IMG/VR virus record: IMGVR_UViG_3300037258_001224
Span: 1-43,435 of that record
Origin: a virus
Length of the DNA stretch: 43,435 nt
Direction: 5' to 3' (one strand)
A program made the position numbers and the translations under genes. Positions 4,274 through 43,435 of this stretch are shown piece after piece; position 1 is the first letter of the stretch; each line of letters opens with the position of its first letter. A model generated the notes under the pieces. The model was not told where the DNA came from. It did not search any database and saw only the letters and a list, made by a program, of their open reading frames with translations.

Positions 4274-4555
4274 TTAGCCGGAGCCGGAGCCGTAGCCGTA
4301 GCCGGAGCCGTCGCCGTCGCCGTAGCCGTAGCCGGAGCCGTCGCCGTCGCCGTCGCCGTAGCCGTCGCCGTAGCCGTAGCCGTAGCCGTAGCCGTAGCCG
4401 TAGCCGGAGCCGTCGCCGTCGCCGTAGCCGGAGCCGTAGCCGTCGCCGTCGCCGTAGCCGGAGCCGGAGCCGTAGCCGTCGCCGTAGCCGGAGCCGGAGC
4501 CGGAGCCGGAGCCGTAGCCGGAGCCGGAGCCGGAGCGAACGGCTAGACGCGCCAT
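4274..4555 (-). CDS. (Ser/Tyr/Asp)-Gly dipeptide-repeat protein
   Basis: A 93-residue product: a seven-residue leader (MARLAVR) followed by 43 uninterrupted X-Gly dipeptides. X is Ser (15), Tyr (17) or Asp (11), and the stop follows directly. The start ATG lies inside the end of the DUF6948-like gene (12-base overlap), as with the other coupled genes. The strand, frame and position favour this reading over plus-strand frames, which would give Arg/Ser or Ala/Val repeats. The product should be disordered, flexible and mildly acidic. Tyr-Gly/Ser-Gly low-complexity chains can self-associate, and Asp-Gly-rich repeats can bind calcium, but neither is shown. Function is unknown. Confidence 0.6.
   Translation of the reverse strand: MARLAVRSGSGSGYGSGSGSGSGYGDGYGSGSGYGDGDGYGSGYGDGDGSGYGYGYGYGYGYGDGYGDGDGDGSGYGYGDGDGSGYGYGSGSG
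4277..4534. repeat. hexanucleotide tandem array, 43 units
   Basis: Forty-three head-to-tail hexamers of the form GCCGNN on the plus strand use only three variants: GCCGGA, GCCGTA and GCCGTC. On the minus strand these are TCCGGC, TACGGC and GACGGC, coding Ser-Gly, Tyr-Gly and Asp-Gly. There is no indel or other substitution across 258 bases. A unit length divisible by three means copy-number change would keep the frame. It is not a CRISPR: there are no spacers and the unit is six bases. Confidence 0.97.
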
Positions 4556-7261: not shown

Positions 7262-8214
7262 GAAGCTACCTCCAGGTTGGTTTGGCCGGGCTGCGCGTCG
7301 GCGGCCTCGGGCATGAGTTCCTGCAATTCGCGGATGTTGGCCATCACGCGGCCGATGGAGAGATAACGGCGGACTTCTTTGTCCGCGCGAATGTCGACGT
7401 GGGAGCGCTCAATAAGCGCGCGCACCTTGGCGGTCGAGAGCCGTGGCAGCTCGGAGCGGATGATGCCTTCGGCTTCTTCGCCCGTAACCGCGGGCAGCGT
7501 GACCTTGTCGGTGACGCGGCGTTCAAGCTGTTCGAGATCGCCGGACCACTTAGAGAAGATGCGATCGAGCTGATGCGATCCGGCAAAGCAGAGACTCCAG
7601 CGCAGCTCGTCATAGAGCTCGCGAATCGTCTCAAGGCATTCGACCGAGAGATGCTGCGCTTCATCGAGATAGAGAACAACGCGGCGACCGGCAAAGTCGT
7701 AGCGCAGATTGCCGATGGTGCGCTCGACGTGCGTGCTGCCGATGGAGCCACAGGCAACAGCGACGCGCTGCATGAGGAAGCGCGGCGTGATGGCGGCGCG
7801 GCAATAGACGCGAAAGAGAGCCGTCTCGGCCGTGGTGAACTCCGGCATCAGCGCGCGGGCGACTTCAGTCTTGCCGCTGCCTGGCGGCGCATAGGCCAGC
7901 ATGATGCAGGGCTGTTCGCAGAGGCGGCGGAAGACGTCGCGCATCACGCGCGTGTTGCCGATCTCGTAGAGCTTGCCCTTGAACTCGTTTTCGTCCTGGC
8001 TTTGCGTCGAACCGACGAAGGCCAGAATCGCTTCGGTGATGGCAGCCTCTTTCGAGTTGGCGCCGCGGGCATAGGTGCCCTTCATGAACTGCCAGAAGGT
8101 CGCGTAGTGGTAGCCGGTGCGCCGTGCGAAATCGACCGGATTCATGCCGGTGCGGCGCAGGAAGTTCCGCGCCAGGCGGCGTGCTTCTTCGGGAGCCGTA
8201 GAAAGATCGTTCAT
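7258..8214 (-). CDS. MuB-type transposition target-selection ATPase
   Basis: A 318-residue AAA+ ATPase. An N-terminal HTH region (about 10-50, 'NPVDFARRTGYHYATFWQFM') is followed by Walker A APPGSGKT (109-116), Walker B VVLYLDE (179-185) and a sensor-like 'CFAGSH' (209-214). It is about the length of Mu B (312 residues). MuB-type proteins bind DNA cooperatively with ATP, deliver target DNA to the transposase and give target immunity. It lies immediately downstream of the transposase with a four-base overlap, as in Mu. The strand is opposite to the late genes. Confidence 0.95.
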   Translation of the reverse strand: MNDLSTAPEEARRLARNFLRRTGMNPVDFARRTGYHYATFWQFMKGTYARGANSKEAAITEAILAFVGSTQSQDENEFKGKLYEIGNTRVMRDVFRRLCEQPCIMLAYAPPGSGKTEVARALMPEFTTAETALFRVYCRAAITPRFLMQRVAVACGSIGSTHVERTIGNLRYDFAGRRVVLYLDEAQHLSVECLETIRELYDELRWSLCFAGSHQLDRIFSKWSGDLEQLERRVTDKVTLPAVTGEEAEGIIRSELPRLSTAKVRALIERSHVDIRADKEVRRYLSIGRVMANIRELQELMPEAADAQPGQTNLEVAS

Positions 8215-10274
8215 TTTTCCTCCAAAATCATGCGTGCTACTTGTGCCGGGGTCATAGGCGCCTCGGCTGCTTTGTCGGGCCGCATATGCAACTTGCGGTG
8301 CGAGATGACTTCAGATGCCACCCTGGGCAGTTCCAGGCGGCTATAGAGCGCTTCCTCGGCCGACTGCGCCCCGTTGTTGCGGGCCTCAGCCTCGATAGCG
8401 CGCAGCGTGCCCCTGGTGGCTTTTTCAAGACCGCGGCGGATCTCCATGGAACTGGCGATCTGCGCCTGGGTCTTGCGGTCGCCGGGAGCGAAACGCAGGA
8501 ACTCTTCGGCCTCAAGCCAGGCGATGAAGCGGCCGTCCAGGTCGAGAGCCGCCGCGCATTCCGGATCGCCGCCGTCGAAGGCCACGAGGATTTCGCGCTC
8601 ATTCGACTCGTGCATCGCAGCCCAGGCCAGGCGATCTTCAGGCCGCGGCGTGTAACGGCGCTTGTTCAGCATCACGGCGCATTCGTGCACCTGGCGCTTT
8701 TCGTACTCCGCCATGAGCAATGCAAGCGTGGCCGGTTCCGGCGTGGGCTTCTGATCGGGATTCGCTTCGGCCAGGAACATCTCGTTCGGGCTGATCCCGT
8801 CCATGCCTTCGCCGCGGTGCGGCGTGCCGTTGTATTCCTCGATCCAGGAGAGGCAGCCGAGGATGAAGCGGCTGGCCAGCGGATGATCTGATTCCGAAAC
8901 GCGGCCTTTCTTAAACAGGCGGCGATGCTGCATCATGGCCAGCTCGGTCGAGTCGGGGCGCGTGGCCGGCGAGCCGGAAGTGTAAGTCGAGTGAATCGAA
9001 TCGAACCGGGTGTGCAGCGTGCGGAAGAAGCGTTCGACGTGCTTGGACTGCGGATGGCGCGGGATGCAATGCGTGACCGCGATACCCAGGCGTGCAAGGA
9101 AACCGGTGCGCTCGATCGATTCGATCTCTGTCTGCCACCAGTTCTCAGGAGCGAGCTGGCTTTCGGTAAGCCAGGATTCACAGCCGCGGCGCGCGCCTTT
9201 TGCGACTTTCAGGTAGTCCTTGCCGTTGTCGACATAAATGCCGTCGGGCGGTCCGAACTGCAGAATGGCGCGGCGCATGGTGGCGGCGATCGCGCGGGAA
9301 CTGCCTTCCCATGCCCAGGTGGCGCCTACCAGCTTGCGGCTGCGGTAATCGAGCATGGCGGAAAGGCGGAGGCGAACCGGCGCACCCAGCGGCGCATCGT
9401 CAAAGAGATCGTTGGCGACTTCAACGTCGTGAATCATGTGATCGCCAACCCAGATCTGATTGGCCCAGATATCGGCGTAGCCGCGGCGGATGTAAGGCGC
9501 CATGCGCTCGCGATATTCGCGCTGCCCTTCGCGGGCCAGGGCCTTCATGGCCGGCGAGATTTGCTGCGACAAAAAGATGCGCACCGTCTCGCGGCTGGGC
9601 AGGTCGCCTTCCTCGATGGCGAGCTGGGCCTGGTCGCGTTCAATCTGCTCGCAGACGAAGGTGACGGACTGGCGTTCATTGAGATGAAGGTAGGCAGCCA
9701 GGATCGCGGCCTCGCGATGACGGTTGAACCAACGGCTCTGACCTTTGTCGGCGCGGACGCGATCAGCGAGTGCGGCGAATCCGCCAGTGCGATAGCGTGC
9801 CAGCCAGCGCTTGATAGTGCGCGGCGACTGGATATTCGTTTCCGCGGCGTACTCGATCATGCGTTCGAGTGACGTGACCGGCTGGCCGCCTTCGAGCTGC
9901 AGGCGCCTGTAGCGATCGGGATTCGCTGGGAAATCGAGAACCGGCTGCAGAATCGCCAGCCGTTGTTCAGCCTGCGCCTGGGCGTCGGGATCCGGAAGCA
10001 CGATGCGTGTCTCAGGCATCGGCGGAAGATTGGCAAACAAAGGCAAAGGCGGGACCGGCGACGCGACCAGGGCCAATTGGTTCTGCGGCGCCGGCGTCTT
10101 TGGGAGAGACGGTTCGAAATATTCCACGCCTTCAGGTGTGGCGCGGAAGATCAGTTCAGATTTGCGACGGAAGAATGTCCGCCGCGACCAGCCGGTGCGC
10201 TCCATGACCTGCTCTGGCGTGAGCGCGATCCACGGGCCGCCGGCTGGGATGATGGCAAGGTGCGGGGCGCTCAT
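8211..10274 (-). CDS. MuA-type DDE transposase
   Basis: A 687-residue transposase, close to Mu A (663). The N-terminus has a HTH-like segment (19-40, 'TPEQVMERTGWSRRTFFRR'), and a second HTH region lies at 130-235. The integrase core is recognisable with D278 ('IWVGDHMIH'), D349 ('GIYVDNGKDYLK') and E414 ('SKHVERFFRTLH'). These are candidate catalytic DDE residues with spacing similar to MuA. A beta-barrel region (about 520-590) and a helical C-terminus, which in MuA contacts MuB, complete it. It drives integration and replicative transposition with the adjacent ATPase. The end binding sites it would recognise are not visible on the left. Confidence 0.96.
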   Translation of the reverse strand: MSAPHLAIIPAGGPWIALTPEQVMERTGWSRRTFFRRKSELIFRATPEGVEYFEPSLPKTPAPQNQLALVASPVPPLPLFANLPPMPETRIVLPDPDAQAQAEQRLAILQPVLDFPANPDRYRRLQLEGGQPVTSLERMIEYAAETNIQSPRTIKRWLARYRTGGFAALADRVRADKGQSRWFNRHREAAILAAYLHLNERQSVTFVCEQIERDQAQLAIEEGDLPSRETVRIFLSQQISPAMKALAREGQREYRERMAPYIRRGYADIWANQIWVGDHMIHDVEVANDLFDDAPLGAPVRLRLSAMLDYRSRKLVGATWAWEGSSRAIAATMRRAILQFGPPDGIYVDNGKDYLKVAKGARRGCESWLTESQLAPENWWQTEIESIERTGFLARLGIAVTHCIPRHPQSKHVERFFRTLHTRFDSIHSTYTSGSPATRPDSTELAMMQHRRLFKKGRVSESDHPLASRFILGCLSWIEEYNGTPHRGEGMDGISPNEMFLAEANPDQKPTPEPATLALLMAEYEKRQVHECAVMLNKRRYTPRPEDRLAWAAMHESNEREILVAFDGGDPECAAALDLDGRFIAWLEAEEFLRFAPGDRKTQAQIASSMEIRRGLEKATRGTLRAIEAEARNNGAQSAEEALYSRLELPRVASEVISHRKLHMRPDKAAEAPMTPAQVARMILEEK

Positions 10275-11024: not shown

Positions 11025-11727
11025 GCATGCCAGCGAACTTCCGTCACGAATCCGCGCACTGCGAAAGTCCTTGAGCATGAATCAAAAGGACTTTGGAAAC
11101 CTGTGTGGGGTGAAGCAGGTGGCGGTTTCGCAATGGGAAAATGAGAATGACCCGCGCATCCCGTCGACAAAAGCGCTTCTTAAAATGTCGGAATTGGCGC
11201 GGACGGCCGACCGGCAATGGTGGCGCGATCGGGCGAGTGAGCAGGCGGGAGTCGAGATTTCCACCGCGTCTAGCACTTCTGGGGCATTGGAAGTTCCGGA
11301 AGGTACGACTAAGGTGCCGCTTATAAGTAATCCCCAGAAAGTGGGAAAAGCGGGTTCAGTGGCGACTATAGATGTTGAGCGGTTCCTATCCTTTTCCTCC
11401 GAGCTTCTGCCGGAGGGCGGTCGAAACGAAGCAGTTCGAATCGAACTTCAAACTACCTCACTTATCGCTGTGATCGATGTAAGCCGGCAGGATGCAGAGC
11501 ATCTGGTCGGAAAGATGGTGGCCGTGCGCACCATCGCCGGAATTGAAGTCCGCTGGCTGGCGCAAGAGAATGGCATGTTTCTCTTGCTGCCATTGAATCC
11601 AGGGCAGACGGTCAAGCCGATGCGCTACAAAGGCGAATGGAGTATCGTTGGCCAGGTGCGCTGGATCGGCGATGCGCCGCCGGCCGAAGTGCCGGCCGGT
11701 AAGACGCCGCATCGACGAAAGGCTTGA
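11023..11727 (+). CDS. cI/S24-like phage repressor, probably non-cleaving
   Basis: The start is ATG 11023, giving 234 residues. The frame is open further upstream but crosses the promoter region. Residues about 5-60 are an XRE-type HTH ('MNQKDFGNLCGVKQVAVSQW'). The C-terminal 100 residues follow the S24/LexA-like fold ('LVGKMVAVRT', 'FLLLPLNPG', 'EWSIVGQVRWIG'). The catalytic serine box is missing and the usual lysine is replaced by Arg in 'IEVRWL', so RecA-stimulated self-cleavage seems unlikely. It faces the early operon across a 72-base control region and should maintain lysogeny. Confidence 0.85.
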   Translation: MHASELPSRIRALRKSLSMNQKDFGNLCGVKQVAVSQWENENDPRIPSTKALLKMSELARTADRQWWRDRASEQAGVEISTASSTSGALEVPEGTTKVPLISNPQKVGKAGSVATIDVERFLSFSSELLPEGGRNEAVRIELQTTSLIAVIDVSRQDAEHLVGKMVAVRTIAGIEVRWLAQENGMFLLLPLNPGQTVKPMRYKGEWSIVGQVRWIGDAPPAEVPAGKTPHRRKA

Positions 11728-11730
11728 AAG

Positions 11731-12006
11731 ATGGCCAAATGCAAGCACTGCGGCGAATGGGCCGGCGTCGCGAGCGACGTGCACGATGAGTGCGCGGAAC
11801 TGAAGGCCAAGGGCTGGACGGATGCGCAGATCTCCGCGCATCGGTCGGGCCGCGACGTCCAGGTCGCGCCTAAAGAGCCGCGAGTTCTCAATCGCACCGA
11901 CATCATCTTCGGGGTCTTTTTCGGCAATCTCTTCTTCGCGATCGTCATCGCGGTTTTCTATCTCTTCGTGTATCTCATCGGTGCAGCGGGCCGCCCCGCC
12001 GGATAA
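11731..12006 (+). CDS. zinc-knuckle plus transmembrane protein
   Basis: A 91-residue product starting three bases after the repressor stop, probably co-transcribed with it. Residues 4-21 hold C4-x2-C7, H18 and C21 ('KCKHCGEWAG', 'VHDEC'). A hydrophobic helix spans 58-84 ('IIFGVFFGNLFFAIVIAVFY'). It is likely an inner-membrane protein with a cytoplasmic zinc knuckle. As a lysogeny-linked membrane protein it could serve in superinfection exclusion, which is inference from position only. Confidence 0.75.
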   Translation: MAKCKHCGEWAGVASDVHDECAELKAKGWTDAQISAHRSGRDVQVAPKEPRVLNRTDIIFGVFFGNLFFAIVIAVFYLFVYLIGAAGRPAG

Positions 12007-12253
12007 CTGGCGAGTCTTCGCCTTCGCCGTCCTGCGCTGCATCTATTCCTTCTCCGCCACATCTCTCCGCATTCACCCTGCGCGGCACAGCCGCGCCCTA
12101 TTCTGGCCGCACCTTACGGGGATTGGACCCGCGTAAATCTCATAAAAGGAGAATCGCGGGGTGACCAGAGCGGTGCGGAGAACGGCGCGGATGCGATCTT
12201 GAAAATCGCTCCCCCGCGCCGCCGCGCTTCGCCTGTGAGCGCGAGGCGGATGA

Positions 12254-12739
12254 ATGCAGGTAAGCGCGAACGGGATCAAGCTGGTGATGAATGCAGAGGG
12301 ATTCCGCAGCCGCGTTTACTTGGACGTCGCCGGAAATCCCACCATCGGGTACGGACATAAACTCCTGCATCCTGACAGCTTTCCAAATGGCGTCGATGAG
12401 ACAACCGCCCAGCATATGTTGGCGTGCGATCTCGATGACGTCGAGAGCGATATCCCGCGCCTGGTGAAAGTTCCGCTCACGCAAGGGCAATTCGACGCGC
12501 TTGCGGATTTCGTCTTCAATCTCGGCGCCACGCGCCTGCAGGGCTCGACCCTGCTTTCTCTTTTGAATTCCAGCCAATATGACCAGGCAGCGCAACAACT
12601 GCTGCGCTGGGACCATGCCGACATCAAAGGCAGCGAAGTCGAGCTCGCCGATCTCAAATCGCGCCGCCAGGCTGAGTTCACGCTCTGGCACTTTGTTGCG
12701 CCCAATGATCCAGCAGCAGCCGCCGAAGTCGCGGCCTGA
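12254..12739 (+). CDS. GH24 lysozyme (endolysin)
   Basis: A 161-residue phage lysozyme of the T4 type. The E-8-D-5-T catalytic triad is visible as E15, D24 and T30 in 'NAEGFRSRVYLDVAGNPT', followed by the family motif 'IGYGH'. It hydrolyses the glycan strands of peptidoglycan at lysis. No signal peptide or anchor is present, so export depends on a holin, and a holin-like gene follows. A 247-base non-coding stretch precedes it and may hold the late promoter, but no good promoter was identified there. Confidence 0.93.
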   Translation: MQVSANGIKLVMNAEGFRSRVYLDVAGNPTIGYGHKLLHPDSFPNGVDETTAQHMLACDLDDVESDIPRLVKVPLTQGQFDALADFVFNLGATRLQGSTLLSLLNSSQYDQAAQQLLRWDHADIKGSEVELADLKSRRQAEFTLWHFVAPNDPAAAAEVAA

Positions 12740-12749
12740 GAGGAGAACC

Positions 12750-13058
12750 ATGCATTTCTTCGCGATGCTTCTACTTCTGTCTGTCGCCCTCACGGTGCCT
12801 CCGGCCGCCAAGGTTCTGGCCATCGTCGGCACCATTTATGCCGTGATCCAGGCGCTTAAGAGAGTACCGGCTCTTACGCCTTATTTGAAGGGCTGGGTCG
12901 CGATCGCGTTGAATGTCGCTCTCAGCATCGGCGGCCTTCTCGTCACCGTTCCTGCGAGCCAGCTCTACACCACTGACACGCTGATCACTCTTTTGACGAC
13001 AGCTCTTGGCGCCGCCGGCATTCACGGCACTGTCAAGAGCCTCACCACCGCGCAATAG
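12750..13058 (+). CDS. holin-like membrane protein
   Basis: The start is ATG 12750 with AGGAG five bases upstream, giving 102 residues. Three hydrophobic segments at about 3-36, 48-68 and 70-95 suggest two or three membrane helices. A short polar tail follows. It lies ten bases after the lysozyme, the usual place for a holin. The call rests on size, topology and neighbour, not on a named holin family. Confidence 0.7.
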   Translation: MHFFAMLLLLSVALTVPPAAKVLAIVGTIYAVIQALKRVPALTPYLKGWVAIALNVALSIGGLLVTVPASQLYTTDTLITLLTTALGAAGIHGTVKSLTTAQ

Positions 13059-13095
13059 GCGCTCTCTCTATCCCAATCTCCGAAAGGAATATCGC

Positions 13096-13770
13096 ATGAA
13101 ACGCAATCTCAACTCGACGCAAAAGCTCGGCGCACTGGCGCTGATCGCTCTCACCTGCATCATCCCGTTTGAGACGGGCTGCACGCAGCAGCAGAAGGTC
13201 ACCGTGGCCCAGGAGATCGTGAACTGGACTCCGGTCTTCATCTCGACGGCGGACACGGTCAACGCATCGATCGAGGCGCTCGATCCGGCGACGGCCATCG
13301 TTCTCAGCCCACTGACCATGGGCATCAATGCCTTTGGTCCGGAGCTGCAGAAGGCCGCGCAGAACTATCTGGCCAACCCGAGCCAGACCACGCTGCAGGT
13401 ATTGCAGGCTCTCGTGACCCAGATCCAGCAGGACGCAAGCACCGCATTGCTGGCCGCGGCCAAGATCACCAATCCCACAAGTCAGGCGACGGCGACCAAG
13501 GATATCAACCTGGTGGCCACCGTCATCAACACGATCCTTGCGCTGGTGCAGTCGATCTCGACCAAGGCGCAGCTCGCCGCGATGGCAACGCATGTGCATG
13601 TGACGTTGGCCGAAGTGCGCCCGTATATGGATGCATCCGGATTGCTCGCAGCCAAAGCCCGCGTGACGAACGATCTCACCCGAAGCGGCCAATTCCAGGG
13701 CGAGCTCGCTATGAATCATATGCCGACGCTGAATCAGTGGTACGCGGCTGAAGCGCAGGCCGGCTTCTAA
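13096..13770 (+). CDS. predicted exported helical (lipo)protein
   Basis: A 224-residue protein from ATG 13096 with a clear export signal (basic start, hydrophobic 'LGALALIALTCIIPF') and a possible lipobox cysteine at 'ETGC'. Glu at -3 is atypical, so lipidation is uncertain. The mature part is almost all helix and rich in Ala/Thr/Gln ('QALVTQIQQDASTALLAAAK'), with no disulphide pattern. Its position after holin/lysozyme would suit a spanin or envelope-directed factor. No family is recognised. Confidence 0.7.
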   Translation: MKRNLNSTQKLGALALIALTCIIPFETGCTQQQKVTVAQEIVNWTPVFISTADTVNASIEALDPATAIVLSPLTMGINAFGPELQKAAQNYLANPSQTTLQVLQALVTQIQQDASTALLAAAKITNPTSQATATKDINLVATVINTILALVQSISTKAQLAAMATHVHVTLAEVRPYMDASGLLAAKARVTNDLTRSGQFQGELAMNHMPTLNQWYAAEAQAGF

Positions 13771-13803
13771 GAAGCTCTCGCAATGAGAGAACCAAGGCAA
13801 CTT

Positions 13804-13836
13804 GGGGCGTCGCGAGAAAACGGCGCCCCGATTTTT
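13804..13836 (+). terminator. hairpin with T tract after exported protein
   Basis: GGGGCG (13804-13809) pairs with CGCCCC (13824-13829) across a 14-base loop and is followed by GATTTTT. It has the form of a weak intrinsic terminator. It sits between two co-directional genes and could reduce downstream expression rather than end it. Confidence 0.5.
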
Positions 13837-13848
13837 AGAGGTAACGAG

Positions 13849-14097
13849 ATGAACAGCTTCACGCTCACGCTCACGCAAAGCGAATTCGAATCGGCGCTGG
13901 CAAATGCAAAGGCGGCCGGCATCGAGCTGAATCCTTCAGGTGGAACACTGCCCGAAGCCGATGGGGTTGCCGCGCATTACACAGTCGAAACGCAGACCGC
14001 CTCGTATGTGGTAACCGTGATTGTCGACAAGAAACCATTCTTCGTTTCGATCGGATTGATCGAAAGCCACGTCAAGCAGCTGCTCGGCGTCGCGTAA
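13849..14097 (+). CDS. small hypothetical protein
   Basis: The start is ATG 13849, with AGAGGT upstream; the frame is open from 13783, but that part overlaps the hairpin. The 82-residue product is an alpha/beta mix: an N-terminal strand ('SFTLTLTQSEFESALANAK'), then 'YTVETQTASYVVTVIVDKK' strands and a C-terminal helix. No signal peptide is visible, unlike its neighbours. Function is unknown. Confidence 0.6.
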   Translation: MNSFTLTLTQSEFESALANAKAAGIELNPSGGTLPEADGVAAHYTVETQTASYVVTVIVDKKPFFVSIGLIESHVKQLLGVA

Positions 14098-14105
14098 AGG
14101 AGCCG

Positions 14106-14696
14106 ATGATGACAAAAGCCTTGATCTCGTTTGTATTCGCGATGCTCCTCGCGAATTCGCTCTTTGGCCAGCGCAATGAAGCCGCAGGCTATGCGATGGG
14201 CAATTTCAACCCCGCATACTTCGCCAATCAGTCGGGAACGATCTTCGCTGGCGACAACACGGCCGCGATCGGATTCGGGTTCGATTACGACCGCGCGCTG
14301 ACCAGGCATAACGCCATCGGCATCTTGGCCGGTCAGGACGATGTGACCGCCGAACTCTACGAGGGCAAGAACACGTTCGATACGTGGACCCTGAAGCGGT
14401 ACGAGGTCTCTGTTCTGGCGACGCAGCAGTTCACGCGCAAGAAGATCACCGGGTTCATCTTCGAAGGGCCCGGCGCCATTGTGACCGATGGGGGCGCGAA
14501 GGAATCGGGATGGACAGCAAATTTCGCCGTCGTGACCGGGTTTGGCTTCGACTACGCGATTGCGAAACACCTCGCGATGCGAACGCGCGTGTCCTTTGAA
14601 GACTCGAACGCCGGATGTTACCTGGACAAATCCTGCAACCAAGCGCGGTGGTCTGTGGCTCAGGATCTCTGGTCGGGCTTTGCGTTTAAGTGGTGA
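14106..14696 (+). CDS. exported outer-membrane beta-barrel-like protein
   Basis: A 196-residue protein with a Sec signal ('ALISFVFAMLLANSLFGQ', probable cleavage near residue 21-23) and GGAG ahead of the start. The mature part alternates in the manner of a small outer-membrane barrel: amphipathic strands ending in aromatic residues ('AAIGFGFDYDRAL', 'AVVTGFGFDYAIAKHLAMR') and a final 'WSGFAFKW' strand with C-terminal Trp. It would sit in the outer membrane or be secreted. A phage-encoded surface barrel could alter receptor availability in lysogens, but this is inference. Confidence 0.7.
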   Translation: MMTKALISFVFAMLLANSLFGQRNEAAGYAMGNFNPAYFANQSGTIFAGDNTAAIGFGFDYDRALTRHNAIGILAGQDDVTAELYEGKNTFDTWTLKRYEVSVLATQQFTRKKITGFIFEGPGAIVTDGGAKESGWTANFAVVTGFGFDYAIAKHLAMRTRVSFEDSNAGCYLDKSCNQARWSVAQDLWSGFAFKW

Positions 14697-14709
14697 AGGA
14701 GTTAATGCA

Positions 14710-15186
14710 GTGAGAAAGCTTTCTGTATTCGGTGTTCTGTTAGCGCTTGCGATCGCGCTCCCAGCGAGTGCGCAGGCGCAAAAGTCGGCGTCCCACACGC
14801 GCAGTTCATTCACGGTGCGGCCGCGGGCCGCTGCGACTGGCGCCCCCGATACGAGTATCGATTTCGATTGGGCCTACGGATTTACATCGCCGCCGACATG
14901 CCCGGCGAACGGTACGCTTGCGGATTGCGTAATCGGCTTCACGTTGACCGACACAACCTCAAATTCGGTGCTGGCCGGACCGACGGTGCTGCCGATCGGC
15001 ACGGTCGCCTGGAAATGGACGCCCAGCGGCGGCCTGTATTTTGGCACGCATTGCTTCGCGCTTGTGACCAACGGGTATGACGACAGCGGCAATCCGCTGG
15101 CTTCCACGGCGGCTACGACCTGCGCTACCAACAGCGTGACCACGCTTAACCCGCCGACTGGCTTTACGGCAACGCCTGGACCATGA
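14710..15186 (+). CDS. secreted beta-sandwich-like protein
   Basis: It starts at GTG 14710, with AAGGAG eight bases upstream, giving 158 residues. The signal peptide is clear ('VFGVLLALAIALPASAQAQ', cleavage after AQA). The mature protein is Thr/Pro/Gly-rich with four Cys and resembles an Ig/Fn3-like sandwich, ending 'NPPTGFTATPGP' like inter-domain linkers of acidobacterial surface proteins. No specific family is recognised. Its stop overlaps the next start. Confidence 0.65.
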   Translation: MRKLSVFGVLLALAIALPASAQAQKSASHTRSSFTVRPRAAATGAPDTSIDFDWAYGFTSPPTCPANGTLADCVIGFTLTDTTSNSVLAGPTVLPIGTVAWKWTPSGGLYFGTHCFALVTNGYDDSGNPLASTAATTCATNSVTTLNPPTGFTATPGP

Positions 15187-15521
15187 GGACGCTTCTCGCC
15201 ATTTCGATTGTCTGCCTCGTGTTCGCATCTATCGAGGGGTGCGCCTCTTTCCACGCGCGCAGCGTGACAATCGCATGGCAATCGGATGGCAACCCGGAAT
15301 TGCCAGTGTGTCCCGCGCCGGGGCAGTTCTGTAAGAGCTCGGTCGAGATATTGGATCTGACCACGGGGCAAAGCGTGAAGGTGCCCGTCACTGCGCCCAG
15401 ATATCTCGTCGAGGCCGCCGCGCTCGATGTTTATCAGGGCCGCACGGTTGGCCTCGATGCGACGGGGAACGCGATCGCAAGCAACTGGGAGCCGGTAGCC
15501 GGTACCGCCGGCGGGAGGTAA
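15183..15521 (+). CDS. small predicted lipoprotein
   Basis: A 112-residue protein whose ATG overlaps the previous stop (ATGA). The signal peptide 'TLLAISIVCLVFASIEGC' ends in an acceptable lipobox (I-E-G-C, Cys20). The mature part contains a C-x6-C pair ('VCPAPGQFC') and beta-rich sequence. It should be anchored in a membrane by lipid. It could be the outer-membrane half of a spanin pair, but it lacks the short Pro-rich form typical of Rz1. Confidence 0.65.
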   Translation: MRTLLAISIVCLVFASIEGCASFHARSVTIAWQSDGNPELPVCPAPGQFCKSSVEILDLTTGQSVKVPVTAPRYLVEAAALDVYQGRTVGLDATGNAIASNWEPVAGTAGGR

Positions 15522-15524
15522 CTG

Positions 15525-16136
15525 ATGCGGATCATCTCGCGACGTGGGCTTGAGCGGTGCGGCTGGGAGCTGCTGGCATTCATGGCTCTGTGCGTGATCG
15601 CCAGCACGCTGCACTCCTGCGACGATGGCGGCTACGGTCACCGCGTCTTCGCGCAGACCAAAGCCGCGACGTATGGGCTTGAAAGCGGCATGGCGTTGCC
15701 CGATCGCGATGTGACACCGGGCGCCGCAGATCCGCTGGCGCTCGCGGATCCTTCCGGTAAGGCTCATCGCGTCGACGGCCTTGAGCGCAACGTGTGCGCC
15801 AAGGACTTTCGGGCGACGGCGATTCGGGCGACGATCCGGAACTTTCCAAAATTAAAGAAGGCGGCCTGCGCCGAGTACTCGCTGAAGAAGTGCGACGGCT
15901 CGGTCGAGGGCGATCACCTGATCTCGATCGAGATCGGCGGCTGCCCGAACTGCCTGACAAATCTCTGGCCTCAGCCGATGGACGAAGCGCGGATCAAGGA
16001 CCACCAGGTGGAAGACGTCCTGCCGAAGCTGGTGTGCTCCGGAAAGATCACCCTGAAGGCCGCCCAGGAATGCATTGCTTCGGACTGGGTGGCATGCCAA
16101 AAAAAGGTGAAGCAGCTGCAGGGGATCGTCGAGTGA
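15525..16136 (+). CDS. secreted HNH-type nuclease
   Basis: A 203-residue protein with an N-terminal hydrophobic signal (about 15-31, possibly a lipoprotein at 'LHSC'). Its C-terminal domain carries an HNH/ββα-metal pattern: D130-H131 in 'VEGDHLISIEIGG', N146 in 'TNLWPQP', then 'KDHQVEDVL' and 'AAQECIASDW'. I recognise this as the exported HNH-like family in which 'DHLIPLELGG..NLWPQ' is conserved. Eight cysteines in the mature part suggest disulphides, fitting action outside the cytoplasm. The likely role is cleavage of extracellular or periplasmic DNA, possibly against competing phages or as a nutrient enzyme. Confidence 0.75.
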   Translation: MRIISRRGLERCGWELLAFMALCVIASTLHSCDDGGYGHRVFAQTKAATYGLESGMALPDRDVTPGAADPLALADPSGKAHRVDGLERNVCAKDFRATAIRATIRNFPKLKKAACAEYSLKKCDGSVEGDHLISIEIGGCPNCLTNLWPQPMDEARIKDHQVEDVLPKLVCSGKITLKAAQECIASDWVACQKKVKQLQGIVE

Positions 16137-16233
16137 GGTCCGCGACCGGGATTCGGGGCAAAAACGGCTTTTCCGGGAGCCGATTTAAGGCGTTCGGAGG
16201 GGGTAGGGAGGACGAATCCCCCGTCCGCGGTTG

Positions 16234-16249
16234 TTGGGACGCGTCCCAA
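16234..16249. promoter_or_regulatory. perfect 16-bp palindrome
   Basis: TTGGGACGCGTCCCAA reads the same on both strands with no central spacer. A hairpin without a loop is unlikely, so a dimeric DNA-binding protein site is the better reading. It lies upstream of the head operon. Confidence 0.5.
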
Positions 16250-16294
16250 AGGGTGTTTTGTGCGATGGCGGGCAGCTTTATTTGGGCGTCTTAG

Positions 16295-16314
16295 CCGGTT
16301 GAAACCGGTTTTTT
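16295..16314 (+). terminator. intrinsic terminator
   Basis: CCGGT pairs with ACCGG across a TGAA loop and is followed by six T residues. It would end rightward transcription from the lysis and exported-protein block before the head genes. Confidence 0.7.
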
Positions 16315-16375
16315 CCGGTCCGAGGGGGTTAGAAGGGGTGTTTTGCATGAATTTCGGGTCTCAAGGCGGTCTCGG

Positions 16376-16846
16376 ATGATGACTCTCGGCCTGGGCGCCG
16401 CAAAATCGGTCAGCGAGGTTCGGATCGGTCTCAGGAACGGCTGGATCCGGTCGGTCGCGATCACCATGGGAGGCGCCAGCGTCATCGGCCTGGTGGTTGG
16501 GCTTTTCAACCTGGCCGAGCGCCAACCGACTCAGATGTTCGAATTGCTTTCGCGGTGGGGATTTGTCTGGCTGCTCGCCCTGGCCGCCATGTTTTTATGT
16601 TGGGACCTGGCCAAGATCGGACTCGGCTACTTGGGGAAGCTAGCCGATTCCGTACAAGATTCGTCGGTCGCCATGAATCGCATCGCCGATCGGGATGACC
16701 GGGAGCGCGATCGCATGATCACCGAGACCGCGTTCATCGGGCAACGGCTCGAACGGCTGACCGAAGAGATGCGTCGCGAACGCCAGGAGCAGAAGGAGCA
16801 CAACGACCGTATCGAAGTGATGATGCGTTCGTTGGTGAAGAAGTAA
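16376..16846 (+). CDS. membrane protein with coiled-coil tail
   Basis: The start is ATG 16376 (an ATG at 16379 is also possible), giving 156 residues. Two transmembrane helices lie at about 28-49 and 61-82 ('WGFVWLLALAAMFLCWDLA'). A long charged helix follows (about 95-150, 'DRDDRERDRMITETAFIGQR', 'TEEMRRERQEQKEHNDRIE') that should form a coiled coil. The shape would suit an inner-membrane lysis or spanin-like component, or a structural scaffold. No family is recognised. Confidence 0.7.
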   Translation: MMTLGLGAAKSVSEVRIGLRNGWIRSVAITMGGASVIGLVVGLFNLAERQPTQMFELLSRWGFVWLLALAAMFLCWDLAKIGLGYLGKLADSVQDSSVAMNRIADRDDRERDRMITETAFIGQRLERLTEEMRRERQEQKEHNDRIEVMMRSLVKK

Positions 16847-16859
16847 TCGGGGGGATGGG

Positions 16860-17171
16860 GTGACGATCGACGCGGCTCAGAACAAACGAATCAGGGGCGT
16901 GATTATCGAGGTGCTCTACGGGCGCCATACAGCGCAATTGCCTCGCGCAGACCACGTCATGCTGTGGCATACGCTCAAGGACCTGGGCGCCGACGTGGGC
17001 GAAAACGATGTCATCACCGCGCTGCAGGATCTGAGCGATCGCAGCTGCCTGCGCTATGAGGAAAAGAAGAACAGGCTCACCAACCGCGCCGAGATTTCGT
17101 TGATCCAATTGACGCCGCGGGGCCGCGACCTGGCCGAAGGAACCATCACCGATCCAGCGATCCAGTTTTGA
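16860..17171 (+). CDS. winged-helix protein, Mu gp26-like position
   Basis: A 103-residue product from GTG 16860. It looks like a winged helix: helix 'IRGVIIEVLYGRHTAQL', a middle helix pair ('DVITALQDLSDRSCLRY') and a wing ('RLTNRAEISLIQLTPRGRDL'). In many Mu-like phages a protein of this kind sits directly before the small terminase. It may help DNA packaging or regulate late genes. The assignment rests on fold impression and position. Confidence 0.75.
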   Translation: MTIDAAQNKRIRGVIIEVLYGRHTAQLPRADHVMLWHTLKDLGADVGENDVITALQDLSDRSCLRYEEKKNRLTNRAEISLIQLTPRGRDLAEGTITDPAIQF

Positions 17172-17179
17172 GAGGCGCG

Positions 17180-17890
17180 ATGAAGAAACAGATGCCGCGC
17201 ACGGGCGAAAAACGGCGGACGCAGCAACCTCTGAAGATCGACAGGCTGCCGGTGGAAGTGCGCGATGCGATCCAATACCTGAAGAACGTCGCGGGCAAGA
17301 CATGGCAGGAGATCGAGGAGATCAGCGCTCTGCCCTACGATGAGAAGTGGCAAGCGAAGCGCGCCGGCTTCGTGAACTGGGATGCGTTGCCGACGGCGGT
17401 ATTAGAGCTTTTCCCGGATATGCATTTGCCTCATACAAATCTGCATCGCTGGTACGACCTGCGCTTCCGCCAGGTGATGAAAGAAGTCCAAAACCGTTCG
17501 GCGCAGGCGCGGGAGCTGGCAACGGCTTTCGCTAAGTCGGTAGTCGCCAAAGATGATCAAGCGGTGCTGAATGCCGCGCGCGACCAGCTTATGTCGCTGC
17601 TGGCCGAGGATGCGTCGCCGAAAGCCCGCATCAACGCGACCAAAGGATTGATCTCCCTGGCTGAGATGCTGCAGGAGAAGCGGCTCAACGACATCAAGGA
17701 GCGCAAGGTCGCGACCGATGAACGCCGCATGAAGCTACTCGAAGACCGCGAAAAGCAAGCGCGTGAACGCGTCGACCAGGCCACGCAACAGGCGGCGAAG
17801 AAGGGCACTGGCCAGTTCTCGATCGAAGATATCAATTTGCTGCGCGAGCGCACCTTCGGCTTGCCGCCGTTGGTGATCGCTCATGATTGA
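17180..17890 (+). CDS. small terminase subunit (Mu gp27 / DUF3486-like)
   Basis: Starts at ATG 17180 with GAGAGG upstream, giving 236 residues. The N-terminal part ('IDRLPVEVRDAIQYLKNVAG', 'TWQEIEEIS') matches the DUF3486/gp27 pattern that recognises phage DNA for packaging. The middle includes 'LHRWYDLRFRQVMKEVQNR', and the rest is a long charged helix expected in oligomer rings. It lies directly upstream of the large terminase with an eight-base overlap. Confidence 0.85.
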   Translation: MKKQMPRTGEKRRTQQPLKIDRLPVEVRDAIQYLKNVAGKTWQEIEEISALPYDEKWQAKRAGFVNWDALPTAVLELFPDMHLPHTNLHRWYDLRFRQVMKEVQNRSAQARELATAFAKSVVAKDDQAVLNAARDQLMSLLAEDASPKARINATKGLISLAEMLQEKRLNDIKERKVATDERRMKLLEDREKQARERVDQATQQAAKKGTGQFSIEDINLLRERTFGLPPLVIAHD

Positions 17891-37966: not shown

Positions 37967-38326
37967 ATGACGACACTTTCAGCCGTGATTGCAACCGGCA
38001 CATATGCAGCGATTCCGGCTTTCGGCATCGATGGGCGACTCTATCTTGCGAGCGATACATTCAGGCTCTATCGCGACAATGGCACCGCTTGGGTTGATAT
38101 CACGCCGGCGAGCTTTAGTCTCGCTCCCATCGCACTGCCCGCGGCAAACGGCGCCGCGACCTACGCGCTGCCTTCCGCGCCCCAGTTCCCGGCCGCTTCG
38201 ATGTATTTCTACAACGGCCAAAAGATGAAATACGGCCTGTTTTATTCGATCGCCGGGAACACGCTGACCCTGCTCACCAGCGCACTACCTCAATCCGGAG
38301 AAACTCATGAACTCTATGCTTCGTAG
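37967..38326 (+). CDS. small tail-associated protein
   Basis: A 119-residue product with TAGGAG upstream. It is mostly beta ('GTYAAIPAFGIDGRLYLAS', 'MYFYNGQKMKYGLFYSIAGN') and Ala/Thr/Leu-rich. The 3' end overlaps the spike gene by 20 bases. Likely a chaperone, adaptor or fibre base for the following spike. No family is recognised. Confidence 0.65.
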   Translation: MTTLSAVIATGTYAAIPAFGIDGRLYLASDTFRLYRDNGTAWVDITPASFSLAPIALPAANGAATYALPSAPQFPAASMYFYNGQKMKYGLFYSIAGNTLTLLTSALPQSGETHELYAS

Positions 38327-41306
38327 GCTCGCATTTGTAATCGTGCTTTGTTTTATCGGTTCGCTGGCTCAGGCTCAGCAATTTAATCCCGTCCAGATCA
38401 AGTGGCCAACCGGGCCGAGCGGATGCGTCTATGCACCGGGAACGAACACTTGCGTTGCAATGACGAGTGGTGGCGGCGCAGGATTGCCTGCGTGCGCTGA
38501 CACCTCAGGTTCTGGGACCGCTCAGAGCTGCGCGACGACGCCTACGTTCACGCCCCTGGCCGGCAGCTGCGTCGCCTACTCGACGACGACGCCGAATAGC
38601 GGAACTGGGCTGACCCTGAATGTTAACGCGCTCGGGGCCCAGCCGGTTGCAAAATGGCTGGGGATGACAACCCTCGCGGCTGGCGACATGCCCGCGAATA
38701 AGACGGTGGTGGCCTGCTATGACGGCGCGGACTGGGAGCTTCAGACGATCGGAAACGTGCCGTCGGGCGGCGGATCGATGCCAACAGCCACCGCGCCTGG
38801 CCAGATCGTTGCGTCGAACGCCGCTGGAACCGCCTATTCGGTTGTTGGGCAACTCTTCTATTCGCAGAGCGGAGACACGCTCACCTCAATTGAAAGCGAG
38901 TGCAGCTCGGCCTGCACCTACATCGTGCAGAACCCTCAAACCATCACGCTCAGCGCCAGTCACACACTCTCTAGCAACGTAAATCTGCAATTTCTGGCGG
39001 GCGGCGAATGGACTGTGAACGGTGCTTTCACGCTCACAATTCCGGGCAATGTCTCAGGCACACTCAATCAACACTTCGCGGGAACGTCTACCGTCAAATT
39101 TGGGTTGTTAGAAAGCCTTGTACCCGTGGAATGGTTTGGCGCGGTGAACGATTGCACAGCGAGCGGCACGGGCACCGATAACACGACAGGACTGAACGCG
39201 GCGGTAAGTTCGCTTTCATCAGGACAAGTGGTCCTACAGAGCGGCATCTACTGTGTGAGCGGAACTGTAAATATCACCGCATCGCGCCAAGGCATTCATG
39301 GTGCGGGAGCGGGCCATTTTGTCAGCGGCACTCAAAATCCCTCAATGCTTATGAGCACATCCGCGACGGCTGTAACGCTGGATGTGAATGGCTCAAGTGC
39401 TCCGGGCGGAATGATTCTGTACAACAAGTTCGATAGTTTTTCTTTAGCTCGCTCGGTTGCTCCAACCGGTACTTACGGGGCTGAATTCGTCGATGCGGGT
39501 GGGATGATTCTCACGCACACAGAGTCCAGCGACAGTCTTATTCCGTACTATTTTCACAATGTTCCCAGCTATACACTGGGCGTCATCTCTTTCAATCAAG
39601 CTGACTGGGGATATAACGGCGTAACTGGATACACAGGCACCTGCGAGGGATTCGTCTTTTCCAACGGTGAGCAAAATTCACCTACACTCGATTGGAATGC
39701 TTCGAGCAGATCAACCGGAACATGTACCACTTCATATGGCCTGGTCATGGCAGGTGGTCCTTTAACGAATGCCGATCTGACCGCAAGCAATCAAACGAGC
39801 TACAACCTCGCCTATGGATTCTTCGTGGGCGCGGCGGATTTTCAGAACATCCTTTTCCCTAATATGGTGAACGATTCAGACACCTATTGCGGCGAATTTT
39901 ATGGGGTGGCCGGATCACCCGAGAGCGCTGTGGTAGACGGCGGTTGGTGCTATGCGAACGACGGAATTGTCATCAATGACGCCACCGGCGTGACGATCAC
40001 AAACAGCATCTTTTATTCAAGTGGGATCGCCGCAACGTCCTCTGCATATTTGACTTTGAGCAACAATCATTTCTACCAGCAAGGAAACAACTCACAAATT
40101 GTTTTGAACGGCGTCAACAACAGCAGCATCACCGGAAGCACAATTGTGGCGGATGGAACGACCGCGACATCAGTATCTTTTGCAAGTTCGTCCTACAATA
40201 CCTTCAGTTCAAATGCGATCAGTGGGCAAGATGCAATCGGAGTCTCGTTCGATTCATCGAGCAATCACAATACAGCGAGCAACGCAAATTCGATCGATCC
40301 CACCCACATCACCACACCAGTTTCCGATGCGGGCACGGGAAACTCGATAAGCTCGGGGAGCTTCACCGCAGCCGGTGACTTGGGTGGCTCAGGTAGTAGC
40401 CAAGAGGTGGTTGGAATTTTGAACCATGCTCTGCCCTCATTAAGTAGTGGATACCCACACTGGACCGGATCAACATGGGTGTTCGACACGCCAAGCGGCA
40501 CATCCCCTCTCACCACCAAAGGCGATTTGTTTGGATACGATACTGGAAATCAGCGCATCCCGGTTGGGGCCGATGGTACATTCCTCGAAGCCGATTCGAC
40601 GCAAGCGACAGGTATTAAATGGGGGACGCCGAGTGGAGGTGGCGGGAGTGGAGGGTTCCCTTTCACGGTAATTCAGGAAGCGCAGACCGGATCGTTTGCG
40701 CAGACCGCTTCTTACACCCTGACTTTTCCGCATGCCCTTCAATCTGGGGGGGCCACGGCCTTTATCTTGTGTTCGCTCGATGGCAGTGCCACGGTCACCT
40801 TTCCCTCGGGATGGACAGTAGATTTCAACCAAGTCGGCACAACTTACGCGCGGTTGGCGCTCATTCAAAAAACATCAGCGTCGGACACGAGTGCTGTGTT
40901 TTCTGGGGCAACGTCTAGCTTTGCCTGCTACTTCTTTGAACTATCGGGCGCACGAACTTTTGACCAATTAAGTGCATCAAGTCAGGCCGACAGCGCCACA
41001 ACGCTTTTTCCTTCTATTACACCCACAGCAGGCTCTCTTGTGTTTGGAGCGCAGAGCTTTGTCGGAGAACTGGCTACAACATCCCTTTTCTCAGATTCTC
41101 TGTTTAGCCCTCCGGCACTCTCTTCTGATTGGAAGGCTTTTGGTGTGGATGGATGGCCGAATCAGGCCACGGCAAGAGTGCTAACTGGCTATGTATCTCA
41201 AGTCGGAGCCACTGGCAGCGCAATTTCGCCTCCCACTCTAAGTATTCCGCAATGGTCCCAATATTCCGGGGGCGGCAATGCCTTCGCTTCCTTCTCGATT
41301 AAATGA
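38307..41306 (+). CDS. beta-helical tail spike with N-terminal signal peptide
   Basis: A 999-residue product with GGAGAAA upstream of ATG 38307. The first 23 residues read as a Sec signal ('RRLAFVIVLCFIGSLAQAQ', cleavage after AQA). A middle region (about 280-690) contains the Asn/Ser/Thr-rich repeats of a right-handed beta helix ('NASSRSTGTCTTSYGLVMAG', 'GVTITNSIFYSSGIAATSSA'). Residues about 733-772 carry the fibre motif 'TTKGDLFGYDTGNQRIPVGA'. A C-terminal beta-sandwich closes the chain. The helix would bind or degrade surface glycans. A signal peptide on a virion protein is odd. Confidence 0.8.
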   Translation: MNSMLRRLAFVIVLCFIGSLAQAQQFNPVQIKWPTGPSGCVYAPGTNTCVAMTSGGGAGLPACADTSGSGTAQSCATTPTFTPLAGSCVAYSTTTPNSGTGLTLNVNALGAQPVAKWLGMTTLAAGDMPANKTVVACYDGADWELQTIGNVPSGGGSMPTATAPGQIVASNAAGTAYSVVGQLFYSQSGDTLTSIESECSSACTYIVQNPQTITLSASHTLSSNVNLQFLAGGEWTVNGAFTLTIPGNVSGTLNQHFAGTSTVKFGLLESLVPVEWFGAVNDCTASGTGTDNTTGLNAAVSSLSSGQVVLQSGIYCVSGTVNITASRQGIHGAGAGHFVSGTQNPSMLMSTSATAVTLDVNGSSAPGGMILYNKFDSFSLARSVAPTGTYGAEFVDAGGMILTHTESSDSLIPYYFHNVPSYTLGVISFNQADWGYNGVTGYTGTCEGFVFSNGEQNSPTLDWNASSRSTGTCTTSYGLVMAGGPLTNADLTASNQTSYNLAYGFFVGAADFQNILFPNMVNDSDTYCGEFYGVAGSPESAVVDGGWCYANDGIVINDATGVTITNSIFYSSGIAATSSAYLTLSNNHFYQQGNNSQIVLNGVNNSSITGSTIVADGTTATSVSFASSSYNTFSSNAISGQDAIGVSFDSSSNHNTASNANSIDPTHITTPVSDAGTGNSISSGSFTAAGDLGGSGSSQEVVGILNHALPSLSSGYPHWTGSTWVFDTPSGTSPLTTKGDLFGYDTGNQRIPVGADGTFLEADSTQATGIKWGTPSGGGGSGGFPFTVIQEAQTGSFAQTASYTLTFPHALQSGGATAFILCSLDGSATVTFPSGWTVDFNQVGTTYARLALIQKTSASDTSAVFSGATSSFACYFFELSGARTFDQLSASSQADSATTLFPSITPTAGSLVFGAQSFVGELATTSLFSDSLFSPPALSSDWKAFGVDGWPNQATARVLTGYVSQVGATGSAISPPTLSIPQWSQYSGGGNAFASFSIK

Positions 41307-42724: not shown

Positions 42725-43435
42725 TCAGTCCTCGCGCAGCAGCACCAGCGGATCGACCTGCAGCGCCCGCTGCGCCGGAAGCCACGTTGCCACCAGTCCC
42801 AAGAGCGCCATTGCCAATAACACTCCGCCGAGCACCAGCGGATCGCGGGGAGTGGCCTGGTAGACGATGGAGGCCAGCACACGCGAAGCGAGCAATCCGA
42901 ATACAAGTCCCGCAGCCGAGCCAATCGCCAGCAAGCGGATGGCTCGCCCCAGGGCAGACCGCAACAACTCCATCCGCTGCGCACCAAGAGCTACGCGGAT
43001 TCCAAGCTCTTTAAGCCGCTTGCTTACCGAGTAGGCGGCCATGCCAAAGATACCCGTAATTGAAAGCATCGCGCCCATCAGGCCGAGCACGCCGAGTGAG
43101 AGCGTCGCCATCCGCGAAGCAAACAGCGCGCCATTCATCTCCTGGTTCCATGTCTGGATGAATGACGGAAGCCCGGGATCGAGGCCATGCAGCTTGCGCC
43201 TGATCGCGGCCGCCAATTGTTGCGGATCGCGGCTTGAACGCAGCACGAGCCAGGTGTCGTTCTGGGGGCTTTGAAGGACGGGACGAAACATCGCCGGCTG
43301 CGGATCTTCGGCCATGTTCGCGGTGTATTTTCCGTTCTCAACAATGCCGGCCACTTCGATGCGCGTTCCATCTGCGATCTTGAAGTGGTGGCCGATGGCG
43401 TTTTCTGCGGAGCCGAAGATCTTGCGCGCGAAGAC
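42725..43435 (-). CDS. ADOP-class ABC permease, FtsX/MacB type (3' part)
   Basis: The frame runs open to the window edge, so only the C-terminal 236 residues are seen and the start is missing. A periplasmic end ('IEVAGIVENGKYTANMAEDP', 'PVLQSPQNDTWLVLRSSRDP') leads into three FtsX helices ('MATLSLGVLGLMGAMLSITG'; 'LLAIGSAAGLVFGLLASRVL'; 'LLAMALLGLVATWLPAQR') and the closing 'ALQVDPLVLLRED'. This matches the tandem orphan permeases abundant in Acidobacteria, which act in export or efflux and lack their own ATPase. It is host DNA outside the prophage. Confidence 0.88.
   Translation of the reverse strand, partial: VFARKIFGSAENAIGHHFKIADGTRIEVAGIVENGKYTANMAEDPQPAMFRPVLQSPQNDTWLVLRSSRDPQQLAAAIRRKLHGLDPGLPSFIQTWNQEMNGALFASRMATLSLGVLGLMGAMLSITGIFGMAAYSVSKRLKELGIRVALGAQRMELLRSALGRAIRLLAIGSAAGLVFGLLASRVLASIVYQATPRDPLVLGGVLLAMALLGLVATWLPAQRALQVDPLVLLRED

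Follow-up and report, generated by a model that had tools for sequence, protein, structure and literature searches.

Why does a phage carry a run of genes with export signals between its lysis genes and its head genes? The question is raised by a six-gene block (g1 to g6, positions 13096-16136) of IMG/VR record IMGVR_UViG_3300037258_001224, whose 43,435 nucleotides were analyzed as a whole and are called the window here. A sequence-only reading of this DNA had described the block as moron-type cargo ending in a secreted nuclease. Based on comparison with related loci (numbered with the prefix L), the block would rather form the latter half of a Mu-like prophage's lysis region, with the exported HNH nuclease encoded by g6 as its conserved working part. 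The family of this enzyme, its fold, conserved export leader and genomic slot, the swap of its catalytic domain and its mutual exclusion with a second nuclease type are all results of the computation itself. The explanation we favor, to which we give about an even chance, is that g6, the product of the last gene of the lysis operon, is held outside the cytoplasm and digests extracytoplasmic DNA at lysis.

g6 belongs to a large, mostly exported family of predicted HNH nucleases

Using our own open reading frame (ORF) calling of the window, in which 60 genes were considered, we confirmed all six ORFs of the block (Table 1). None of them matched a recognized family in Pfam, PHROGs or NCBIfam. For g6, the catalytic pattern is D130 H131 ... 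N146 ... K158 D159 x3 E163, and across 78 phage and cellular sequences C91, R101, E128, D130, N146, K158, D159, E163 and C171 never vary, and H131 is nearly invariant. The invariant cysteine pair (C91 and C171) would fit a disulfide in an exported, oxidized protein. In two HNH relatives (L021:766-1305 and L022:5974-6483) the equivalent of the general-base histidine H131 is an aspartate (ELDD), and these are possibly inactive or altered enzymes.

When AlphaFold2 was first run on 17 phage sequences, the core was of low confidence and the fold search uninformative; adding cellular relatives to the alignment fixed this (predicted local distance difference test, pLDDT, 96.5). In the resulting model, one strand ends at D130-H131, a second starts after N146 and a helix bears K158-D159 and E163, giving the beta-beta-alpha-Me arrangement with the general-base His, loop Asn and helix metal ligands that define HNH enzymes structurally. 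The five best matches in a PDB profile search were all HNH nucleases, each of them weak (E 0.06-0.4), and the three best Foldseek matches were chains of one nuclease toxin; by profile or fold, the top PDB entries were Cas8-HNH, pyocin AP41 and Rhs2-CT, with colicin E9 lower. No curated HNH model in Pfam, NCBIfam or PHROG matched g6. Many HNH lineages escape curated models, and lack of a match is not strictly defining. Weak matches to PF13930 (Endonuclea_NS_2) were found for 3 of the 78 family members, one with a listed score below the curated cut-off, and for the window protein there was none. The family-wide D-H...N...K-D-x3-E pattern and the beta-beta-alpha model bear out the earlier proposal that g6 is an HNH-type nuclease, a predicted assignment in which we are confident and from which DNA cleavage would be expected.

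Relatives with 48-72% identity to g6 are not confined to Mu-like phages; very different phages also have them, among them the 42%-GC L011-L013, L018 and L021, and L022, which lies on a 107-kb contig. When genomes were scanned with a profile, 103 relatives were confirmed in Thaumarchaeota, Actinobacteria, Acidobacteria, Chloroflexi and others, 80 of which were kept; most cellular relatives have N-terminal signal or lipoprotein-like leaders, and the closest cellular match to the family is in an Acidobacteriaceae genome. No relatives were present among 50,697 phage records, no match was obtained when genome contigs were scanned with close g6 relatives alone as query, and no window gene, g6 included, had a match in PADLOC. 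The family is thus large and mostly exported, with no Pfam or NCBIfam model.

HNH and PLD nucleases alternate in one slot of the lysis operon

To place g6 in context, we compared 36 non-redundant intervals reaching from the lysis genes to g8, drawn from 51 terL clusters and including the window; Mu-like relatives had been located via nuclease, g1 or terL searches, with 80 loci kept from the terL scan. Gene order in these relatives is endolysin, holin/g1, g2, variable genes, nuclease, g7, g8, terS and terL, and in every Mu-like relative carrying HNH the nuclease is found between the endolysin/holin module and g7-g8-terS. The slot holds an HNH nuclease in 8 intervals (a remnant in L183), a PLD nuclease in 15, both in none and neither in 13, and zero overlap has a chance probability of P = 0.007. 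Without the loci that entered via other searches (L007, L039, L044 and the window), the 32 remaining intervals, which come from the terL scan and were selected independently of the nuclease, comprised 5 HNH, 15 PLD, 0 both and 12 neither. We found no nuclease match among the unknown genes of the 13 nuclease-free intervals.

In L028, L034 and L040, the slot protein is an exported PLD-like nuclease (PF13091, 7.6e-19 to 1.3e-11) with an HxK...GSxN motif, and the best solved relative of the slot PLD proteins is the Nuc endonuclease (1byr). PADLOC matches of these proteins to DrmC reflect the common PLD fold, and that identity was rejected. Both nuclease types carry a leader with a hydrophobic core, a Cys usually in SC or GC and a short stretch ending in A-Q (in g6, LHSC followed by VFA-Q). 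The best HNH-PLD leader pairs scored 80-88 (z 13-17), and control leaders from other exported proteins did not exceed 38. By our rule (see below) g6 has an export signal, its leader is conserved in relatives, and a hydrophobic leader precedes the domain in the intact PLD and HNH members that were read. A cytoplasmic location was considered for two-helix PLD forms and rejected, as a second hydrophobic leader directly precedes their domain. The catalytic domain has been swapped between HNH and PLD behind a conserved export device and, given this exchange, selection appears to act on the exported nuclease activity itself.

The same region holds further variants. One reading frame in L141 (5942-6964) joins a holin-like protein, an export leader and a PLD nuclease. 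A small helical-hairpin module (YDEL..FW..TRDP..), which often has an export signal, occurs alone or fused between leader and HNH domain (L166:5825-6142, L192:2204-2785, L137:2363-2617, L002:5342-5725 and L006:5668-6714). A papain-like-looking protein with no export signal is found in the variable region, sometimes where the nuclease is absent (L167:5850-6629, L190:3931-4665 and L195:5722-6408), and a 541-aa exported, possibly beta-helix protein adjoins the nuclease in the lysis region of L007 (7043-8668). Accessory genes of nuclease-free intervals include three D12-class adenine methyltransferases and one Acb2/Tad1 hairpin-domain protein (anti-defence type).

The rest of the block: lysis genes, variable cargo and transcription signals

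The genes preceding g6 differ in how widely they are shared. In g1, the Cys after the hydrophobic core (ETGC-TQQQ) is invariant in five aligned sequences, and the protein is fused behind a holin-like segment in L002, L003, L006, L039, L044 and others. Intervals with a long g1 form (276-282 aa) lack the separate holin-like gene downstream, and almost every short form is accompanied by such a gene, including a diverged one in L201 that was missed by the hidden Markov model (HMM); the window differs in having its own holin-like gene at 12750 instead of a downstream one. An Rz/spanin-like protein is found in 8 of the 36 intervals versus 17 for g1, never together. From these comparisons, g1 is best read as a lysis-module protein and lysis-cassette partner of the holin, and g1 and g2 both appear to be widespread lysis-module genes in relatives. 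The 50,697 phage records contained no relative of g1.

By comparison, g3 to g5 look like exported cargo that is particular to this lineage and was inserted after g2, ahead of the nuclease. Weak counterparts of g3 and g4 were found in one relative alone, L007, and g5 had no counterpart in any related locus, being seen in the window only. The L007 relative of g3 matches PF13505 (OMP_b-brl) at 1.9e-6 and 28.6 bits, just under the cut-off of 28.7, which supports the earlier description of g3 as barrel-like; g3 itself had no match in viral contigs and one marginal match in 396 genomes, with no convincing relatives there. In relatives, the nuclease slot recurs independently of g3-g5.

Export signals were called with a crude, uniform rule (a charged n-region followed by an uncharged hydrophobic core of 12 residues) and no SignalP. 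By this rule 7 of the 60 window genes are export-signal-like and five of these lie inside the block, an enrichment with a hypergeometric chance of 2e-5 that is post hoc, the block having been chosen for that property. As the sequence-only reading had stated, five of the six genes carry such signals, with g2 the sole exception, and the lipoprotein-like signals it described are likewise supported. Such motifs lie in g1 (ETGC), g5 (IEGC) and g6 (LHSC). It was also right that the head genes lack export signals, yet a 999-aa late gene of the tail region (38307-41306) has a clear N-terminal signal peptide (MNSMLRRLAFVIVLCFIGSLAQAQ), odd for a tail-region protein, and no Pfam or PHROG match.

The terminator said to bound the block corresponds to a hairpin with T6 on the 3' side of g6 that looks real and is statistically modest; a stronger hairpin, unmentioned before, lies inside the block between g1 and g2. 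No comparable terminator follows g1 in the relatives scanned (one weaker match, L192). Many relatives, for example L178, L147, L151, L199, L141, L183 and L176, have hairpin and T-run candidates between the nuclease and g7. A scan for sigma-70-like promoters, the type it covered, found 0 sites in 11600-17300 versus 1.6 expected by chance.

Table 1 Features of the lysis region and the six-gene block, in window coordinates
Feature	Position	Strand	Basis
Endolysin (phage lysozyme), start of lysis operon	12254-12739	+	PF00959 4e-34; phrog_7 1e-39
Holin-like membrane protein	12750-13058	+	Hydrophobic; directly 3' of endolysin; no family match
g1, helical lipoprotein-like lysis-module protein (putative)	13096-13770	+	Export signal; invariant Cys29; holin-like fusions
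Intrinsic terminator-like hairpin and T-run between g1 and g2	13802-13842 (hairpin 13802-13836)	+	11 pairs; -20.7 kcal/mol; z -2.8
g2, small cytoplasmic protein, no export signal	13849-14097	+	g2/g2b HMM matches in most related intervals; no family match above cut-off
g3, exported outer-membrane-barrel-like protein	14106-14696	+	Signal peptide; L007 homologue, 26% identity
g4, exported beta-sandwich-like protein, FnIII-like linker at end	14710-15186	+	GTG start; signal peptide; weak relative (E 0.007), L007 only
g5, small lipoprotein-like protein	15183-15521	+	IEGC lipobox-like motif
g6, exported HNH (beta-beta-alpha-Me) nuclease (predicted), last gene of lysis operon	15525-16136	+	Family pattern; model; leader
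g6 export leader, residues 1-44	15525-15656	+	Hydrophobic core, conserved SC, VFA-Q; leader type common to HNH and PLD
g6 catalytic core, E128-E163	15906-16013	+	Conserved in 78 sequences; strand-loop-strand-helix in model
Terminator-like hairpin and T6 closing lysis/nuclease operon	~16293-16314	+	Fold of 16284-16322, -14.9 kcal/mol; z -1.7
Downstream anchors g7 (membrane), g8 (phrog_436), terS	16376-17890	+	Conserved after nuclease slot

A proposed role at lysis and its alternatives

We propose that g6 would be made late, from the end of the lysis operon, and that its N-terminal leader would send it across the inner membrane to be held in the periplasm or on the membrane. Outside the cytoplasm, it would spare the replicating phage genome, and packaged virions would be immune. 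Once holin, endolysin and g1 open the cell, g6 would digest spilled host DNA, its most likely target, which may free progeny virions from the DNA tangle; the same activity would also hit DNA being injected or taken up. Enzyme activity, late expression, DNA target and benefit are what we infer here. What favors the lysis role is that this gene is the last of the lysis operon, that hairpin and T-run candidates follow it in many relatives and that no promoter is recognizable.

Four observations weigh against this explanation. First, 13 of the 36 related intervals have no recognized nuclease, so the enzyme is not essential. Second, the HNH gene is present in the unrelated L011-L013 and L022 with no obvious lysis neighbors, which suggests that its role is not strictly tied to the lysis operon. 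Third, the single PDB matches of g6 are not significant (profile E 0.06 or worse; Foldseek E 2 or worse). Fourth, the window has a terminator between g1 and g2, which could separate the transcription of g2-g6 from that of the endolysin.

A membrane-held or periplasmic nuclease might also act in superinfection exclusion by cutting competing phage DNA as it crosses the periplasm, late in infection or in the lysogen. The combination of an export signal with a nuclease points this way, as do the exported barrel-like protein in the same block and the presence of the nuclease family in unrelated larger phages. An Asp often follows the leader Cys (SC-DD), which would mean inner-membrane retention of a lipoprotein by Escherichia coli rules, although acidobacterial rules may differ. 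However, position -2 of the lipobox is R or H in many members, atypical for lipidation, g6 had no PADLOC match, and the absence of a recognized promoter in the block and its operon position suggest expression at a late stage, at which a lysogen gains less from exclusion. We consider this role possible but somewhat unlikely; the position at the end of the lysis operon and the lack of a recognized internal promoter favor late expression and fit digestion at lysis at least as well as exclusion.

An anti-transformation role, in which the prophage degrades incoming free DNA so that the host cannot recombine the prophage out, has precedents in secreted DNases of the Campylobacter jejuni elements CJIE1 (dns), CJIE2 and CJIE4, which lower transformation 100-1000 fold and are known for blocking transformation and dispersing biofilm, and in YokF of the SPbeta prophage, which lowers transformation in Bacillus subtilis (PMC4774983, PMC4372405). 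Such a role would require expression in the lysogen and a competent host, and the family also occurs in larger phages not known to be temperate; we think it rather improbable.

Morons are cargo genes with their own promoter and terminator that are expressed in the lysogen. The idea that the five exported genes form one such cassette with a joint envelope function gains something from their contiguity, from hairpins on each side of g2-g6 (13802-13836 and ~16293-16314) and from L007, which has a barrel, an Ig-like protein and a nuclease in the same region in another order. Sporadic presence among close relatives, a further mark of morons, is seen for g3-g5, and 23 of the 36 intervals have the nuclease slot occupied. 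The sequence-only reading had itself suggested looking for the same five genes together elsewhere, and no other locus among the relatives has the set. Nuclease and g3-g5 vary independently, g1 and g2 appear to be lysis-module genes, and g5 is unique to the window. By comparison with relatives, the five-gene cassette is largely refuted, and we rate it very improbable; what stands of the moron proposal is that g3-g5 act as variable cargo, and what does not is that the five genes are a unit.

HNH proteins beside terminase genes act in packaging in some phages, and g6 has an HNH fold and lies ~1 kb upstream of terS, but a cytoplasmic packaging or head-completion nuclease acting with terminase is scarcely credible and was rejected on the export leader, which the intact members read all have, as the family also has two invariant cysteines, an operon-end hairpin separates g6 from g7-terS, and the gene can be replaced by a PLD nuclease and is absent from a third of relatives.

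Phage type and host

The window carries a Mu-like gene set, with a transposase at 8211-10274 on the minus strand (phrog_310, 4e-77) and an adjoining AAA ATPase, together with terminase, portal, Mu F-like, major head and tail tube genes, and g6 is thus carried by a phage or prophage. An FtsX-like permease fragment at the right end (42725-43435) is probably host DNA. Based on this fragment and on the relatives, the host is probably a soil Acidobacterium; no close relative of the window terL was found in the 396 sampled genomes (the phylum of an Acidobacteria genome). In the early region, 4274-4555 (minus strand) is a low-complexity repetitive ORF of the GSGYGDGDGSGYG type.

Comparison with known nucleases

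Like g6, the CJIE DNases are signal-peptide nucleases on integrated phage-like elements. By descriptions rather than sequences, g6 differs from them in that its HNH family has no model, it sits in a lysis operon, and PLD nucleases can take its place behind a common leader. YokF and the streptococcal prophage streptodornases (PMC4774983) are also prophage-encoded exported DNases, a likeness by description and not by family comparison, and unlike the window they belong to Gram-positive hosts. For the alternative slot nuclease, the best solved relative belongs with the PLD nucleases Nuc of pKM101 (1byr) and Helicobacter pylori NucT, the latter periplasmic and membrane-associated (PMC5714352); their fold is unrelated to that of the window HNH enzyme and they are not lysis genes. 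The HNH DNase domains of toxins (pyocin AP41/S2, colicin E9 and Rhs2-CT), which were among the top weak matches, share the beta-beta-alpha-Me core with g6, whereas g6 has an export leader in place of delivery domains, a K-D-x3-E helix, family-invariant cysteines and no recognized immunity gene.

Prophage-secreted DNases are already known, singly and for the most part as factors of virulence or anti-transformation. What this analysis adds is an HNH family with no curated model, its location in the lysis operon and its exchange with PLD behind one leader. No report of such an exported-nuclease arrangement in a lysis operon was found in the literature searched, of which coverage was partial. The exported HNH family that comes to light here is broad, with members in bacteria, archaea and phages. 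Tentatively, and with a little less than even confidence, we suggest that Mu-like acidobacterial phages have a regular exported-nuclease slot in the lysis operon, filled by interchangeable HNH or PLD/Nuc domains behind a conserved leader, and that this may be a further lysis function beside holin, endolysin and spanin, destroying extracytoplasmic DNA as the cell opens or incoming DNA in the periplasm. In many uncultured soil phages, one place of the lysis operon holds either of two unrelated nuclease folds behind one leader, and this alternation is strong evolutionary evidence that an extracytoplasmic nuclease benefits the phage.

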